DNA of 64,000 nucleotides from Weissella diestrammenae (GTDB lineage: Bacteria; Bacillota; Bacilli; Lactobacillales; Lactobacillaceae), in NCBI RefSeq assembly GCF_014397255.1, contig NZ_CP060724.1, positions 1,178,001 to 1,242,000 on the forward strand. The letters are read 5' to 3'. The notes under the pieces were generated by a model. It did no database searches. It was not told the origin of the DNA and was given only the letters and a program-made list of their open reading frames with translations. A program made the position numbers and the translations under genes. How positions within the stretch are numbered: position 1 is the stretch's first letter; each line of letters opens with the position of its first letter. Of this stretch, positions 6,878 to 49,062 are shown piece by piece.

Positions 6878-6994
6878 TATTACGTGAGTAAAATAAACTT
6901 GGTGAAAAAGATTGAGTATCCTGATAACATATACTTTTTGTTAAAAAGCGCTTATAATACGAAGTGATTTCAAGTCGCTAAGACAAGAAATTAA

Positions 6995-7180
6995 ACAGGG
7001 TAGATGTTTATGCGTTAAGTGCCTCAAAAACGGAATGTGAGTTGAGGACGAAAAATAACATTTAAAATCAGTTGACGGCTTGGGAAATGATACTGGGCCG
7101 GAGACTGATGGATAAGGTTGTTTGCGGTATAAATGTCGCATTCACTGTCATAGGTGATAACCCTCCACTATATTGGGAGG
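6995..7180 (+). promoter_or_regulatory. THF (tetrahydrofolate) riboswitch with SD-sequestering platform
   Basis: The leader of folT carries the THF-I aptamer landmarks. These are a GGTAGATG-like 5' junction (6999-7006), GCGTTAAGTG (7012-7021), and a 3' segment GCGGTATAAATGTCGCAT matching the conserved GCGGTGAATCATTGCATCC block. P1 is ACAG (6995-6998) with CTGT (7145-7148). Downstream, CCTCC (7162-7166) can pair with GGAGG (7176-7180), the folT ribosome site. AGGGT (6997-7001), which overlaps P1, can instead pair with ACCCT (7160-7164). That gives two exclusive states: ligand-bound P1 leaves CCTCC free to mask the ribosome site, while the ligand-free state exposes it. The aptamer call is firm; the switching model is inferred without a folding calculation. 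Confidence 0.85.
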
Positions 7181-35348: not shown

Positions 35349-35409
35349 TCATACTATGCCTATGAAACAATGGCAGGTTTTAGAAGAAAATATTGAAAGG
35401 TGGGTAGAG

Positions 35410-36695
35410 ATGGCACAACAACCATTAGCATATCGTATGCGACCACGCTCGATTGAAGAAATTGTTGGACAACAACATTTAGTTGGTGAAGGTAAGATTA
35501 TCAATCGGATGGTCAAAGCCAAAATGTTGTCTTCAATGATTCTATATGGGCCCCTGGTACTGGTAAGACAAGTATTGCTAGTGCTATTGCTGGATCAACG
35601 CAATATGCGTTTCGGATGTTAAATGCTGCGACAGACAGTAAAAAAGATTTACAAATTGTTGCGGAAGAGGCTAAGATGTCTGGCACGGTTGTTCTATTGT
35701 TAGATGAAATTCATCGGCTTGACAAAGTTAAACAAGACTTTTTATTGCCGCATTTAGAGAGTGGACAAATTGTACTAATCGGGGCGACAACGGAAAACCC
35801 ATATCTATCGATCAATCCTGCAATTCGTTCAAGAACACAAATTTTTGAAGTCCAACCGTTACAAGAAGAAGATATGCTCACGGCAATCGACCGTGCGCTG
35901 GCTGATTCAGAACGTGGCTTGGGGCTGTATCAGGTTGAATTGGATGATAATGCACGTCAACAATTAGTTTATGCCACTAATGGCGATTTAAGAGCAGCTT
36001 TAAATGGGTTAGAATTGGCTGTTAAATCAACCCCAGCAGATAGTGACCAAGTCATTCATATTGATTTGGCGATTGTTGAAGAGAGTATTCAGCGTCGAGC
36101 ATTAACTGCGGATAAAGATGGTGATGCACATTATGACGTTATCTCGGCATTGCAAAAATCAATTCGAGGCAGTGACGCGGATGCCGCACTTCATTATGTG
36201 GCTCGTTTGATTGAAGCGGGTGACTTACAGATTATTGCACGGCGCTTACGAGTCATTGCTTATGAAGATATTGGTCTTGCGAATCCAGCTGCCGTCGAAC
36301 GAGCTATTTCAGCTATTCAAACCGCTGAACAGTTAGGCTTTCCTGAAGCAAGAATTCCAATTGCTAATGCAGTCATAGAATTGGCATTATCGCCGAAATC
36401 TAATTCTGCATATTTGGCGATTGATGCAGCGTTAGCGGATGTCCGAAAAGGTGGCAATGGTGATATACCGGCTCAATTGAAAGATGCACATTATTCTGGT
36501 GCGGAAAAATTAGGCCATGGTGTGGGGTATCTATATCCACATGATTACCAGGGTGACTGGATTGCTCAACAGTATTTGCCTGATAAGTTGGTTGGTACAG
36601 CATACTGGCAACCAAAAGGAAATTCTAAAATTGAACAAACTTATAAGGCACAGTATGAGAAACTTCAGCATGCACAACGTGATGGATTGAATTGA
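35410..36695 (+). pseudogene. rarA: replication-associated recombination protein A (RarA/MgsA), one-base frameshift
   Basis: The AAA+ ATPase begins MAQQPLAYRMRPRSIEEIVGQ (start set by AAAGGTGGG upstream of 35410) and runs to ILYGP, then the frame shifts. The other frame resumes at AFRMLNAATDSKKDLQIV and contains Walker B LLLDEIHRLDK and the rest to a normal C-terminus. One more C in the CCCC at 35551-35554 restores GPPGTGKTS, the Walker A loop, giving about 428 residues. As it stands the protein loses its ATP site. RarA acts at stalled replication forks. Sequencing error is a strong alternative. Confidence 0.88.
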
Positions 36696-42015: not shown

Positions 42016-42029
42016 AACAACATGGTTAA

Positions 42030-42254
42030 GCCTTAGAGGAGTAAATTGGATTTTTTGTTTAGCGAGTGTGTGGTTGGTGGAAACACATCAAAATTCCAAT
42101 CGAATGTAGTTAAGGCGCTTAATAGATGAATTTCAGTAGTTTATTACGTATTCCGCGTTAAGGAGGATGAGATGGGATTAAATGATTCCCAAATCAGGTG
42201 GTACCGCGTTGATGACGCCCTGATGAAGACAATAGGTCTTCATTGGGGCTTTTT
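42030..42254 (+). promoter_or_regulatory. T-box leader of valS (Val specifier GTA)
   Basis: AGGTGGTACCGCG (42196-42208) is the T-box bulge sequence. Stem I contains AGTA on its 5' side, the ATTGGA/TCCAAT helix and the GAA-type loop with specifier codon GTA (42106-42108, inside GAATGTAG). The terminator pairs GCCC and GATGAAGAC with GGTCTTCAT and GGGC, followed by T5 (to 42254). Uncharged tRNA-Val would stabilise the antiterminator and turn valS on. Confidence 0.95.
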
Positions 42255-44948: not shown

Positions 44949-44988
44949 ACGCTTAATTTATGTGACAGATTGATCAGTTTTAATAATA

Positions 44989-45025
44989 AAAATGACTGCG
45001 ACATTAATTTGTTGCAGTCATTTTT
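44989..45025. terminator. bidirectional terminator after valS
   Basis: AATGACTGC (44991-44999) pairs with GCAGTCATT (45014-45022) with flanking A and T runs. On the minus strand it is placed to end the bacteriocin transcript. Confidence 0.9.
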
Positions 45026-45062: not shown

Positions 45063-45079
45063 ATCGATGAAAAACTGGA
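45063..45079 (+). repeat. left copy of 17-bp direct repeat flanking the bacteriocin cassette
   Basis: ATCGATGAAAAACTGGA, identical to 49046-49062. Similarity extends imperfectly from TGATAA (45045) to TTTAAT (45096), overlapping the stop codon of the bacteriocin gene. Confidence 0.8.
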
Positions 45080-45087
45080 TAGTCTGA

Positions 45088-45240
45088 TTATTTAATATGT
45101 AGAATTTGCTTGATTTTGTTGATAATCCAATCAATAGCTTGGCCAGCATTTAACCATTTGATGATGGTACCAATATTGTTTTTCCCCCAGTTTAATACCG
45201 TTGACCCAGCAGCAGCTAGTGCGTCTAATATTACAGCCAT
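45088..45240 (-). CDS. leaderless class II bacteriocin, lacticin Q/aureocin A53 type
   Basis: A 50-residue peptide with GAGG 9 bases before the ATG. There is no double-glycine leader or signal peptide. The C-terminal half reads WLNAGQAIDW and NKIKQIL, which matches the C-terminal helix of lacticin Q as I remember it almost residue for residue. The N-terminal half is different from lacticin Q and less basic (one lysine in the first 25 residues). It is cationic (5 Lys, 2 Asp, 1 His) with three tryptophans, as in this membrane-permeabilising family. On the opposite strand lies a PH-domain and ABC transporter operon like the lnq immunity/export genes. It is too short for most gene callers. Confidence 0.87.
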   Translation of the reverse strand: MAVILDALAAAGSTVLNWGKNNIGTIIKWLNAGQAIDWIINKIKQILHIK

Positions 45241-45453
45241 ATAAAATTACCTCGTTTTTTTGTTAATCATGATTACTTTATTAGTGTAACTAGTAGTAGT
45301 CGTTTTGTGTGCACTAAAACACTGACAAATGTCATTGAACTGAGACATTGATTTGATTAGGCCTAATACAAAAATGCACAGAATAGGCATAATTTCTTCA
45401 TTGCGGGGGGGGGGGATAATGAACAAATATTAAATTTTTAGGAGATGTTTTAT
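45241..45453. promoter_or_regulatory. divergent control region of the bacteriocin locus with poly-G tract
   Basis: Contains an 11-G run (45405-45415) joined to a -10-like GATAAT (45415-45420) for the rightward operon, and a perfect 12-bp palindrome ATTAGGCCTAAT (45356-45367). It also has TGACA-AA-TGTCA (45323-45334) and a further dyad AATGTC/GACATT (45328-45349). These are candidate operators for the adjacent XRE regulator. No strong -35 is visible for either direction, so the promoter positions are tentative. Confidence 0.55.
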
Positions 45454-45675: not shown

Positions 45676-46109
45676 TACAATTATCAGTTAATAAACAAGT
45701 CGTTTACTATGAATTGACCCGATGCATATTTTCAATGTTTTCTGGCTTAATTATCATTAGTTGTGTGGCATATTTTTTTAAATCAATTGCCGTACTCCAC
45801 TTTGGTATATTTGGCATTTTCTGTTTAGATGTTGGCAACGGTGTAAAACGATTATTAATGAGACGTGCTTATCGGATGAGAGTTACTGACTCTCAGATTG
45901 GCATTCAACAAGGTATTTGGATACATAAAGAATTAGTCATTTATCGGGATAAAATATTTGCATTAAATTATAAGCAAAGTATGGTTCAAAAATGGTTTGG
46001 GTTGACGATGATTCAAATTAGGACAACGGGGTTAACATATGCGACGCCAGTGGTTAAATCTGATTCAATGTTGATCGAACAGCTGGGGTTAGTATATGCA
46101 AAAAAATAG
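45672..46109 (+). CDS. bacterial PH-domain (bPH2, YdbS-like) membrane protein
   Basis: 145 residues with a TTG start overlapping the regulator stop and GGGAGG upstream. Two membrane helices (about 19-55) precede a bPH2 domain: YRMRVTDSQIGIQQGIWIHKELVIYRDKIFALNYKQS and RTTGLTYATPV are the domain's usual strand pattern. Proteins of this kind occur in pairs (YdbS/YdbT) in leaderless bacteriocin loci such as lnq and auc, where they provide self-immunity and help export. It overlaps the following PH gene by 14 bp. Confidence 0.78.
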   Translation: MIQLSVNKQVVYYELTRCIFSMFSGLIIISCVAYFFKSIAVLHFGIFGIFCLDVGNGVKRLLMRRAYRMRVTDSQIGIQQGIWIHKELVIYRDKIFALNYKQSMVQKWFGLTMIQIRTTGLTYATPVVKSDSMLIEQLGLVYAKK

Positions 46110-47420
46110 TAAATTAATCGTTATTCAAAAATTTGTTGAAATCTTGACAATATACTTACTGAATACCCAATTTATACGCGAGTTACCAATGGGGACATTA
46201 AAAAATGTTTTACATATATCTTGTATGTTATTTATCCTGTATAAATTGTATGAATTAATAAATTACGGCTTTTTTTTAATTACCAGCTTGAAAATAAAAA
46301 AATAATTGTCAAAAAAGGTATTTTTGACAAAAACCATTTGGAAATGAATGTAAAAAACATTATTGGCTTGAACTGTCGACAATTGTGGTATTTTAAACCC
46401 TTTGGCCTTTGGCAAGCGTCGATTCAGACGGCTGGTTTGGGGGAGAATAGTCAGCTGATGTTACCAATGATATCTCAAAGCCAGGTTAATACTTTGACGG
46501 CGTTTATTGAAAAAGATGCATGTTCTATACAGTCAAAGCAAGACAATGCATCAGAATTTCAGGAAATCAAGCCTCTAAAATTGAAAAATTTGGTTAAAGC
46601 GGCATTATTATCACCAAAATACTTATTTTTCTTTGTTTTGGTTGATCGTATCCAGGCCTTGTTAAATGTCGTTGGGATACAGAAATTACCATCTTTTTTC
46701 TTACATAAGTCTGAATTGAATAAGTTGATTGGAGAGCTTGGATTGGTGATCTTGTTTGTGAGCTCAGCTTTGTTGAAGCAATATCTAGATTATCGGAATT
46801 TCAAATTAAAATTCAATGATGAAATGATTGACATTGCAAATGGTGTCCTTGCTACCAACCAAGGACATTTGAATAAAAAAGATGTCTTAGGATTACATAT
46901 TAGTAAAACTGTTAGCGAACATATTTTGAACTTATCGTCAGTCGAGGTGCTTTCAAAACATAACCTGGGAGATGCAAAAACAAAAATCAATGAGGTGTTG
47001 CCATATACATCAGATGAAGGTGTTGCACAGTTATTAAGCCAGATTCTGGGTGGATGGCCTTGTCCTGATTTGGGGGATAAAAATAAAAGAGCCTTGAAAA
47101 TCGTAGGAGGTCTACTAATACTCCTAGGCGTGGTTAGCCTCATTACATTTTTTGATATAAAGCGCAGTCTGATCAATTTGCTTGTTATTTGTCTACTTTT
47201 GATTTTAGTTATTCTTTTGAGTTATTTTCAGAGGGAACTCGAAATTGATGGTGACTATATAAAATATCATTTCGGTATGTTTGTACATTCTGCGTATATT
47301 GTTAAACGAAAACAAATCGAATGGATTAGACAAGTTGAAATTGGCCCTTTTATTTTGACTGAGGTGGCTATCTATTTAGACCATTTAAGACACTTTAGGG
47401 TGATTACACGAAAGAGGTGA
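46096..47420 (+). pseudogene. second PH-domain membrane protein (YdbT-like), frameshifted in a T8 run
   Basis: Frame one (46096-46305) gives two helices ending INYGFF. After the TTTTTTTT at 46270-46277 the other frame reads NYQLENKKIIVKKGIFDKNH and continues through LWYFKPFGLWQASIQTAG, the bPH2 signature, to 47420. One extra T (or two fewer) joins them into about 441 residues with repeated PH domains and further membrane helices, as in YdbT. As written, the protein is split. It is expected to cooperate with the smaller PH protein in immunity. Confidence 0.78.
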
Positions 47421-47423
47421 ACT

Positions 47424-48104
47424 ATGCCAGTACTTATATGGTGTGAGATTAGAAGAGAGTTGTTGACATTTAAGAGCATCATTGTAGTCGCTTTTATTGT
47501 CAGTTTGTCGGTCTTTATTGGTGAGTTTGGGGCGAATGTAAAAGATGCTTTACCAAATGGTGATTCTTCAATCTATACGAGCTTATTTTCATTATTTGCG
47601 TTATTTGGTTTTATATTTTCGATGATGATTTTTTCAGGCATTGTAGCGTCTGAAATTGAATCTGGTACGATTCGATTGATACTACCATATTTCGACCGAA
47701 AGTTGATTTATATTGCACGGTGGCTAGCAATATTTAGTTATTTTATCTTTCTTATCATCACGTCAATTGTTATTGTTTCTTTTTTAAAAATGCAGTTTCT
47801 CATTCCTTGGGGATTGTTTGGCAAAACAGCCTGCTTTTTTGCATATTGTTCTAGTGTCGTGATGTTTGTGTCGAGTTCATTTTCAAAGGTTAAAACTGCA
47901 AATTTTATTGGTGTGCTAATTGGTATTGGGTCATTAATTGTATACATTGCTGATAGAATTGATGGACATAGTTTTTTTCATTTCCTAGATTATTTGATGC
48001 CATACCAATATATAGATAATCCTAACGGCGGATTAATTTTAGTGACTTTGAGTATAATATTCGGGTTACTGGGATGGTTTGTATTGACGAAAAAGGAAGT
48101 TTAG
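47424..48104 (+). CDS. ABC-2 type transporter permease, bacteriocin immunity/export
   Basis: 226 residues with six predicted membrane helices. ASEIESGTIRLILPYFDRKLIYIARW, after the second helix, is the coupling region typical of ABC-2 permeases. It starts 3 bp after the PH gene and is followed directly by its ATPase. In the lacticin Q and aureocin A53 systems such a transporter removes the peptide from the membrane and secretes it. Codon use is AT-rich like the rest of the cassette. Confidence 0.8.
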   Translation: MPVLIWCEIRRELLTFKSIIVVAFIVSLSVFIGEFGANVKDALPNGDSSIYTSLFSLFALFGFIFSMMIFSGIVASEIESGTIRLILPYFDRKLIYIARWLAIFSYFIFLIITSIVIVSFLKMQFLIPWGLFGKTACFFAYCSSVVMFVSSSFSKVKTANFIGVLIGIGSLIVYIADRIDGHSFFHFLDYLMPYQYIDNPNGGLILVTLSIIFGLLGWFVLTKKEV

Positions 48105-48106
48105 TA

Positions 48107-48964
48107 ATGATAGAGGTCAAAGGATTAGATAAAAGTTTTCATGGAAATCAAATTTTAAATGGTATCAATCTTAAGGTTGATAATGGGAGGATTACCGCAT
48201 TAATTGGGAAAAATGGTGCTGGTAAATCAACATTAATTGGCTGTGTTTGTCATTATTTTGAAATTGATGCGGGTAGTATTTTAAATGCAGATGTATCCGT
48301 TATGCCAGATGTCGATAATCTATATCGTGATATGACGGGACGGCAGTTTTTGAAATATATGACACGTATTAAAAGAAAAGGGACTTTTGATTATTTAAGT
48401 ATGGTGAAGAGATTAGGTATTGTTGAGGAATTGGACAACAAGATCAAATCGTATTCATTTGGGATGAAATAGAAAGTGAATTTTATTCAAGCTTGTTTGG
48501 GTGATTATGACACATTTATTTTTGATGAACCGACATCTGGTGTCGATGTAGAATCCGCTGTAATAATGATGAAAATAATAAAAGAAATTAAGTCCCGAGG
48601 CGCAGCAATTTTGTTGACTTCGCATAACATTGAGGAACTACAGGAAGCTAGTGATTATATTTATTTCATTAATCAAGGTGTGATAGAACAAGCGGGTACG
48701 GTCAAAGAGATTTTAAGTTATTCACGTCATGATGCTACGGTTGAATATGTATTAGTACCTCAATCGATTGAGAAAATGGCTGCATATTTAGACGAAAGCG
48801 CAGAAAATGATTACTATATTCACGAAAATGTCATTGTCATGGCTTTCTCAAATATAAATGCGATGAATTGTTTTTTAAAGTCACTGGTATTCAATAACAT
48901 AATTCTGATTGAGATTTATCAATCCAATAAGAAACTGAAAGATGTTCTTTTTGCAGCAGATTAA
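48107..48964 (+). pseudogene. ABC transporter ATPase with internal amber codon
   Basis: The ATG at 48107 has AAGGAAG upstream. Walker A GKNGAGKST is near residues 34-42. At codon 122 (48470-48472) a TAG interrupts the frame right after the signature-motif equivalent SFGMK. The same frame then continues KVNFIQACLGDYDTFIFDEPTSGVD with Walker B, the switch histidine and a normal C-terminus (285 codons in all). CAG or CAA (Gln), the usual residue in GMKQK, would need a single change; C to T in CAG gives exactly this codon. Without read-through the ATPase is inactive. Confidence 0.88.
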
Positions 48965-49045: not shown

Positions 49046-49062
49046 ATCGATGAAAAACTGGA
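49046..49062 (+). repeat. right copy of 17-bp direct repeat flanking the bacteriocin cassette
   Basis: ATCGATGAAAAACTGGA, identical to 45063-45079; looser similarity runs from TGATAA (49030) to TTTAAT (49079). It lies between the ATPase gene and folC. Confidence 0.8.

Follow-up and report, generated by a model that had tools for sequence, protein, structure and literature searches.

A leaderless aureocin A53-family bacteriocin gene beside an interrupted PH/ABC operon in a probably decaying island of Weissella diestrammenae

We analyzed a 64,000-nucleotide window of the Weissella diestrammenae genome (contig NZ_CP060724.1), in which an open frame of 50 codons with the product MAVILDALAAAGSTVLNWGKNNIGTIIKWLNAGQAIDWIINKIKQILHIK is located between valS and folC. 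Divergent to this frame is an operon that encodes an HTH regulator, two bPH_2 proteins, an ABC permease and an ABC ATPase (Table 1). The genes occupy an island of about 4 kb, extending from after valS to before folC, with a GC content of 33.4% compared to 39.9% for the window. Two identical copies of a 17-bp sequence bracket the island in direct orientation, and a G11 tract is found between the bacteriocin gene and the operon. A hairpin downstream of the bacteriocin gene might be a terminator common to valS and the bacteriocin gene; the scan for terminator-like structures returned nothing above its threshold.

Table 1. Features of the valS-folC island and its left flank, in window coordinates.
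Feature	Position	Strand	Basis or remark
Hairpin with 16-bp arms, T runs on both strands	44988..45025		inverted repeat; absent from terminator-scan list
Left 17-bp direct repeat, ATCGATGAAAAACTGGA	45063..45079	+	left bracket of island
Leaderless aureocin A53-family bacteriocin structural gene, 50 aa	45088..45240	-	frame, family models, predicted fold
Shine-Dalgarno GAGGT	45249..45253	-	8 nt before ATG; direct reading of sequence
G11 tract	45405..45415	+	intergenic; touches GATAAT hexamer 45415-45420
XRE-type HTH regulator, 73 aa	45454..45675	+	PF12844, 58.4 bits
Small bPH_2 (YdbS/LnqC-like) membrane protein, 145 aa	45672..46109	+	PF03703
Large bPH_2 (YdbT/LnqD-like) gene, interrupted	46096..47420	+	1-nt frame break at T8 tract
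ABC-2 type permease, 226 aa, full length	47424..48104	+	homologues 226-253 aa
ABC ATPase gene, interrupted	48107..48964	+	in-frame TAG 48470-48472 beside signature motif
Right 17-bp direct repeat, identical to left	49046..49062	+	right bracket of island

Sequence and predicted fold together settle the 50-aa product as a member of the aureocin A53/lacticin Q family, a group of leaderless class IId bacteriocins. The NCBIfam equivalog model NF033881 (aureocin_A53; curated cut-off 27 bits) matched the product with 55.5 bits (E 3e-15), and the Pfam model PF11758 (Aureocin-like; cut-off 25 bits) with 40.4 bits. The NF033881 match covered residues 1-47 of 50 and profile positions 1-47 of 48, starting at the initiator Met and thus without a leader. 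A phmmer search of the PDB recovered lacticin Q (E 4e-12) and epidermicin (1e-6), as well as BacSp222 and aureocin A53. The AlphaFold2 model, computed with five relatives, had a pLDDT of 93 and four helices at residues 2-11, 13-21, 23-31 and 36-47, packed in the compact four-helix saposin-like fold of the family. The six best PDB chains in Foldseek were those of lacticin Q, epidermicin (three chains), BacSp222 and aureocin A53, with probabilities of 0.98-1.00, and the high-probability matches in the PDB were limited to these four bacteriocins. VIA-align of the predicted model with the solved family members gave Z scores of 6.0-8.9. The peptide is cationic (net charge +3, pI 9.8) and contains three Trp residues (W18, W29 and W38). 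An earlier reading of the letters of this DNA (the original prediction) had proposed a leaderless gene of the lacticin Q type with a good ribosome site and no leader peptide, and the profile searches, the predicted fold and the position of GAGGT bear this out. The same reading called the gene ‘unannotatably short’, which did not hold: the NCBI family model names it, and PMC10100829 lists it as KAR27_07735.

The peptide and lacticin Q were 55% identical over 47 residues, with 18 of 23 positions identical in the second half, in agreement with the predicted closeness of the C-terminal part to lacticin Q, and 8 of 24 in the first half. The first half has no net charge, whereas the part of lacticin Q that aligns with it has +4, and the second half has +3 against +1, so the proposal of a less cationic N-terminal half and an altered charge distribution was also confirmed. 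The suggestion that the N-terminal half is novel is correct insofar as this half has diverged; it is not unrelated, since A9, G12 and W18 are common to the peptide and its closest relatives, which argues for a diverged homologous half rather than a new module. The total charge of +3 falls under the family mean of +4.63 reported in a study that predicted 757 core peptides for the family (PMC11580447).

Relatives of the peptide were scarce. A profile built from a narrowed alignment gave five matches among 84,980 species, the best in Curtobacterium (46-56% identity) and Scardovia (43%), and a single-protein scan of genome contigs found no relative. Viral contigs yielded none either. NF033881 matched the W. 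diestrammenae genome once, at the 50-codon gene, and the 397 genomes of the bacterial family and 398 of the phylum yielded a single further match above the cut-off, which belongs to another genus of the family and has an internal stop codon. The locus of that match (genome G678, L010 6700-8515) is decayed, with a TAA inside the aureocin A53-like match and a frameshift in the neighbouring ABC ATPase gene. We rejected a weak match in genome G015 (probably W. uvarum) as a close relative, as it belongs to a different, two-peptide locus of the enterocin L50 type. This genome encodes two adjoining enterocin L50-like leaderless peptides of 39-40 aa (L003 1501-1777 and L011 5585-7467) with PH-domain genes nearby, which agrees with the report of an enterocin L50 area in W. 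uvarum.

The divergent operon had been described in the original prediction as the immunity/export set known for this class. Its divergent layout, which is that of the geobacillin 6 locus, agrees with the original prediction, but a working immunity/export set is not supported, given a frameshift in the large PH gene and a TAG in the ATPase gene. Genes for both bPH_2 proteins (YdbS- and YdbT-like) are present. The small one starts with TTG coupled to the stop codon of the HTH gene, and its product weakly matches geo6B and geo6C; no relative was found in 27 congeners at E 1e-5, among plasmids, or by sequence in the PDB. The large PH gene is spread over two frames, with the first ~58 residues in one and the remainder in another, and the break falls at the T8 tract (46270-46277). 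The downstream frame matches the PH protein of geobacillin 6, beginning at residue 74 of the latter (E 9e-14). The frameshift may be genuine or stem from faulty assembly: a homopolymer break is present in rarA as well, within this window, which makes indel errors possible, and we therefore did not take the lesion as certain. The rarA frameshift falls at a C4 run in the P-loop codons of the gene (35356-36695), which is a pseudogene unless this homopolymer break is an assembly error.

The permease gene is open and the ATPase gene is not, so the island does not hold the intact ABC pair of an lnqBCDEF-type operon. The ATPase reads YSFGMK*KVNFIQ (asterisk, TAG) where four homologues from lactic acid bacteria have YSFGMKKK(I/L)SF(V/I)Q. 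The TAG is less easily an error than the frameshift because it is a substitution and not a homopolymer indel. Three paralogues in the genus, none of which neighbours a bacteriocin gene that was seen, are intact. A related ATPase gene with two frameshifts adjoins a homologous permease gene on Melissococcus plutonius plasmid pMP1 (L009 5558-6520), where no leaderless bacteriocin is annotated near it.

Position, composition and repeats support the conclusion that the bacteriocin gene and the operon arrived together as one foreign, low-GC island of 4 kb. No 17-mer repeat was produced in any of 300 Markov shuffles of the region, and a genome-wide search allowing up to 2 mismatches gave no third copy of the 17-bp repeat. 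In most of the 27 other Weissella species searched, valS and folC lie near each other, with gaps of ~140-260 bp where measured. No integrase or transposase was seen within the island. In the nearest congener by FolC (genome G010, L047 2927-7421) the gap between valS and folC contains other genes, named by eye only as a long secreted-type protein, a membrane protein and a TetR-like regulator, suggesting that the site may take foreign DNA repeatedly. Two ordinary regulatory RNAs were also seen in the window, a T-box leader before valS (42019-42225) and a THF riboswitch (6994-7149) before the gene at 7161.

The G11 tract is the sole G or C run of at least 10 in the whole 1.66-Mb genome, and the GATAAT hexamer that it touches is just 5’ of the ribosome site of the HTH gene. 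Phase variation is known to arise from promoter runs that vary in length, and as a lead only, the tract is a candidate phase-variable regulatory element. We considered a sigma-70 promoter in which G11 would be the spacer, but such a promoter is absent from the output of the promoter scan and we saw no good -35 match beside GATAAT, so this idea stays speculation and was set aside.

The gene has been predicted in print before. The part of PMC10100829 considered here reports, for W. diestrammenae DSM 27940T (assembly of 1.64 Mb and 39.2% GC; PMC9257631), a hemolysin III (KAR27_07725), an aureocin A53 family match (KAR27_07735) and tlyA (KAR27_07810). KAR27_07735 is two locus tags past hemolysin III and 15 ahead of tlyA, an order that agrees with that of the window: hemolysin III (41122), valS, the bacteriocin gene and tlyA (57891). 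The window gene and KAR27_07735 are almost certainly one gene. In that part of the paper it figures as a BAGEL4 match only, and the broken operon, the island ends and the G11 tract are not described there. The two interrupted genes, the 17-bp repeats and the published prediction had all been missed by the original prediction. The published stretch from KAR27_07735 to KAR27_07810 holds 15 loci in a separate short-read assembly, and we counted 14 genes from the bacteriocin gene to tlyA in the window if all are whole, which hints, and only hints, that a gene between the two is split in the published assembly too. According to PMC10100829, culture supernatant of W. diestrammenae did not inhibit Escherichia coli, Bacillus megaterium or Listeria monocytogenes in an assay with one medium and these three indicators, none of them lactococcal.

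The best-studied counterpart is lacticin Q of Lactococcus lactis QU 5 (PDB 2n8p), which shares with the peptide the four-helix fold (here predicted), the leaderless state and PH and ABC partner genes. Lacticin Q has 53 aa and the peptide 50 aa with an uncharged first half; lnqQ/lnqBCDEF is regulated by the TetR-type LnqR, whereas the island has an HTH regulator; and the large PH gene and the ATPase gene, unlike their counterparts in lnqBCDEF, are interrupted. Each of lnqCDEF is required for lacticin Q production (PMC8657885), LnqEF is the minimal immunity unit, and expression of lnqQ alone suppresses growth (PMC4155820). Deletion of either PH protein of the enterocin DD14 system leaves the toxic peptide trapped in the cell, and ABC mutants of the EntDD14 and aureocin A53 producers retain ~25% of export (PMC8657885). 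Among the relatives by sequence, the aureocin A53-like peptides of Curtobacterium sp. VKM Ac-1393 (L053; 56% over 50 aa) and Scardovia wiggsiae (L056; 43%), both Actinomycetota, have Arg/Lys-rich first halves and a GIR end, unlike the peptide here, and the PH and ABC genes of Curtobacterium appear open, unlike those of the island. Geobacillin 6 of Parageobacillus thermoglucosidasius (L006) is 40% identical to the peptide and also of low charge (+2 in total against +3), and its gene is likewise divergent to a PH-PH-ABC set. That locus is plasmid-borne with its annotated genes intact, and the producer strain is active (PMC10311245).

We propose that the locus is a decaying and probably non-secreting island in which the structural gene survives next to an interrupted operon, a reading to which we assign a probability of about 0.72. 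By analogy with the family, the peptide would be leaderless and four-helical, active as translated, and would insert into and permeabilise Gram-positive membranes. An island with the HTH regulator, the two PH proteins and the ABC exporter/immunity pair would have been gained as one unit, and the ATPase gene, probably the large PH gene too, would have been interrupted after arrival. Export and ABC-type immunity are predicted to be lost with these interruptions, since lacticin Q needs lnqCDEF and LnqEF for these functions. Leaderless peptides poison cells that do not export them, so the gene would most likely be silent or weakly expressed, or else the peptide (+3, with its uncharged N-terminal half) would be too weak against its host. 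The intact frame says nothing about selection, because at the lesion density seen, chance alone would leave a 150-bp frame open with a probability of ~92-96%, and we rejected it as evidence of selection. Several points count against the decay reading: the break at T8 may be an indel error of the assembly, slippage at T8 could give some full-length PH protein, the TAG could be read through or be followed by re-initiation at GTG 48476, ABC mutants of other producers retain ~25% of export, and the negative assay was limited to one medium and three indicators, none of them lactococcal.

The explanation that the frame is a chance ORF and no gene can be dismissed in practice. Its length of 50 codons is all that speaks for it, and both family models were passed by large margins, a ribosome site is in place, the predicted fold matches and the neighbourhood is typical of the family; the analysis had already refuted this reading. 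A fully working locus, with both interruptions being assembly errors and the peptide made, exported and tolerated by means of the PH/ABC operon, is unlikely. No lesion affects the bacteriocin, HTH, small PH or permease gene, and homopolymer indel errors are plausible for a 1-nt lesion at T8 when rarA shows a similar break at C4. That explanation does not extend to the TAG, and the 15 published loci against the 14 intact genes counted, with their hint of a split gene in DSM 27940T, and the inactive supernatant in the published assay (PMC10100829) are further points against it. The preference for a decaying island over a working locus follows if the TAG is real and the intact frame is uninformative.

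The gene might instead have been kept without dedicated immunity, as a low-charge, weak or altered peptide with another export route or an intracellular role, under the control of the HTH regulator and possibly of G11. The N-terminal charge of 0 against +4 in lacticin Q, the placement of the genome's only long G/C run in the divergent promoter region, and partial export in cells lacking ABC transporters (PMC8657885) would fit such a role. A frame so likely to be open by chance gives no sign of selection, no -35 match accompanies GATAAT, and there is no close homologue with which to gauge selection; we consider this retention very improbable. A related proposal, that the peptide has been altered through its uncharged N-terminal half and is harmless to its maker, so that the gene persists with exporter and immunity lost and G11 may switch the promoter, is a long shot that we rate only slightly higher.

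Under the favoured reading of a decaying island, the locus encodes a real but uncharacterised addition to a family whose predicted members number in the hundreds; it had been predicted in silico before, and its working state is doubtful. Its value lies in the pairing of an intact gene, supposedly toxic to its own host, with immunity and export genes that are broken, which serves as a warning that BAGEL-type matches may sit in dead clusters. The broken operon offers an explanation, open to testing, of why the antimicrobial assay of the species was negative, and W. diestrammenae is a natural strain in which to study the tolerance of a leaderless bacteriocin by a cell without the matching ABC system. 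If the peptide indeed no longer harms its maker, the locus would provide a natural test of the residues behind self-toxicity in this family.
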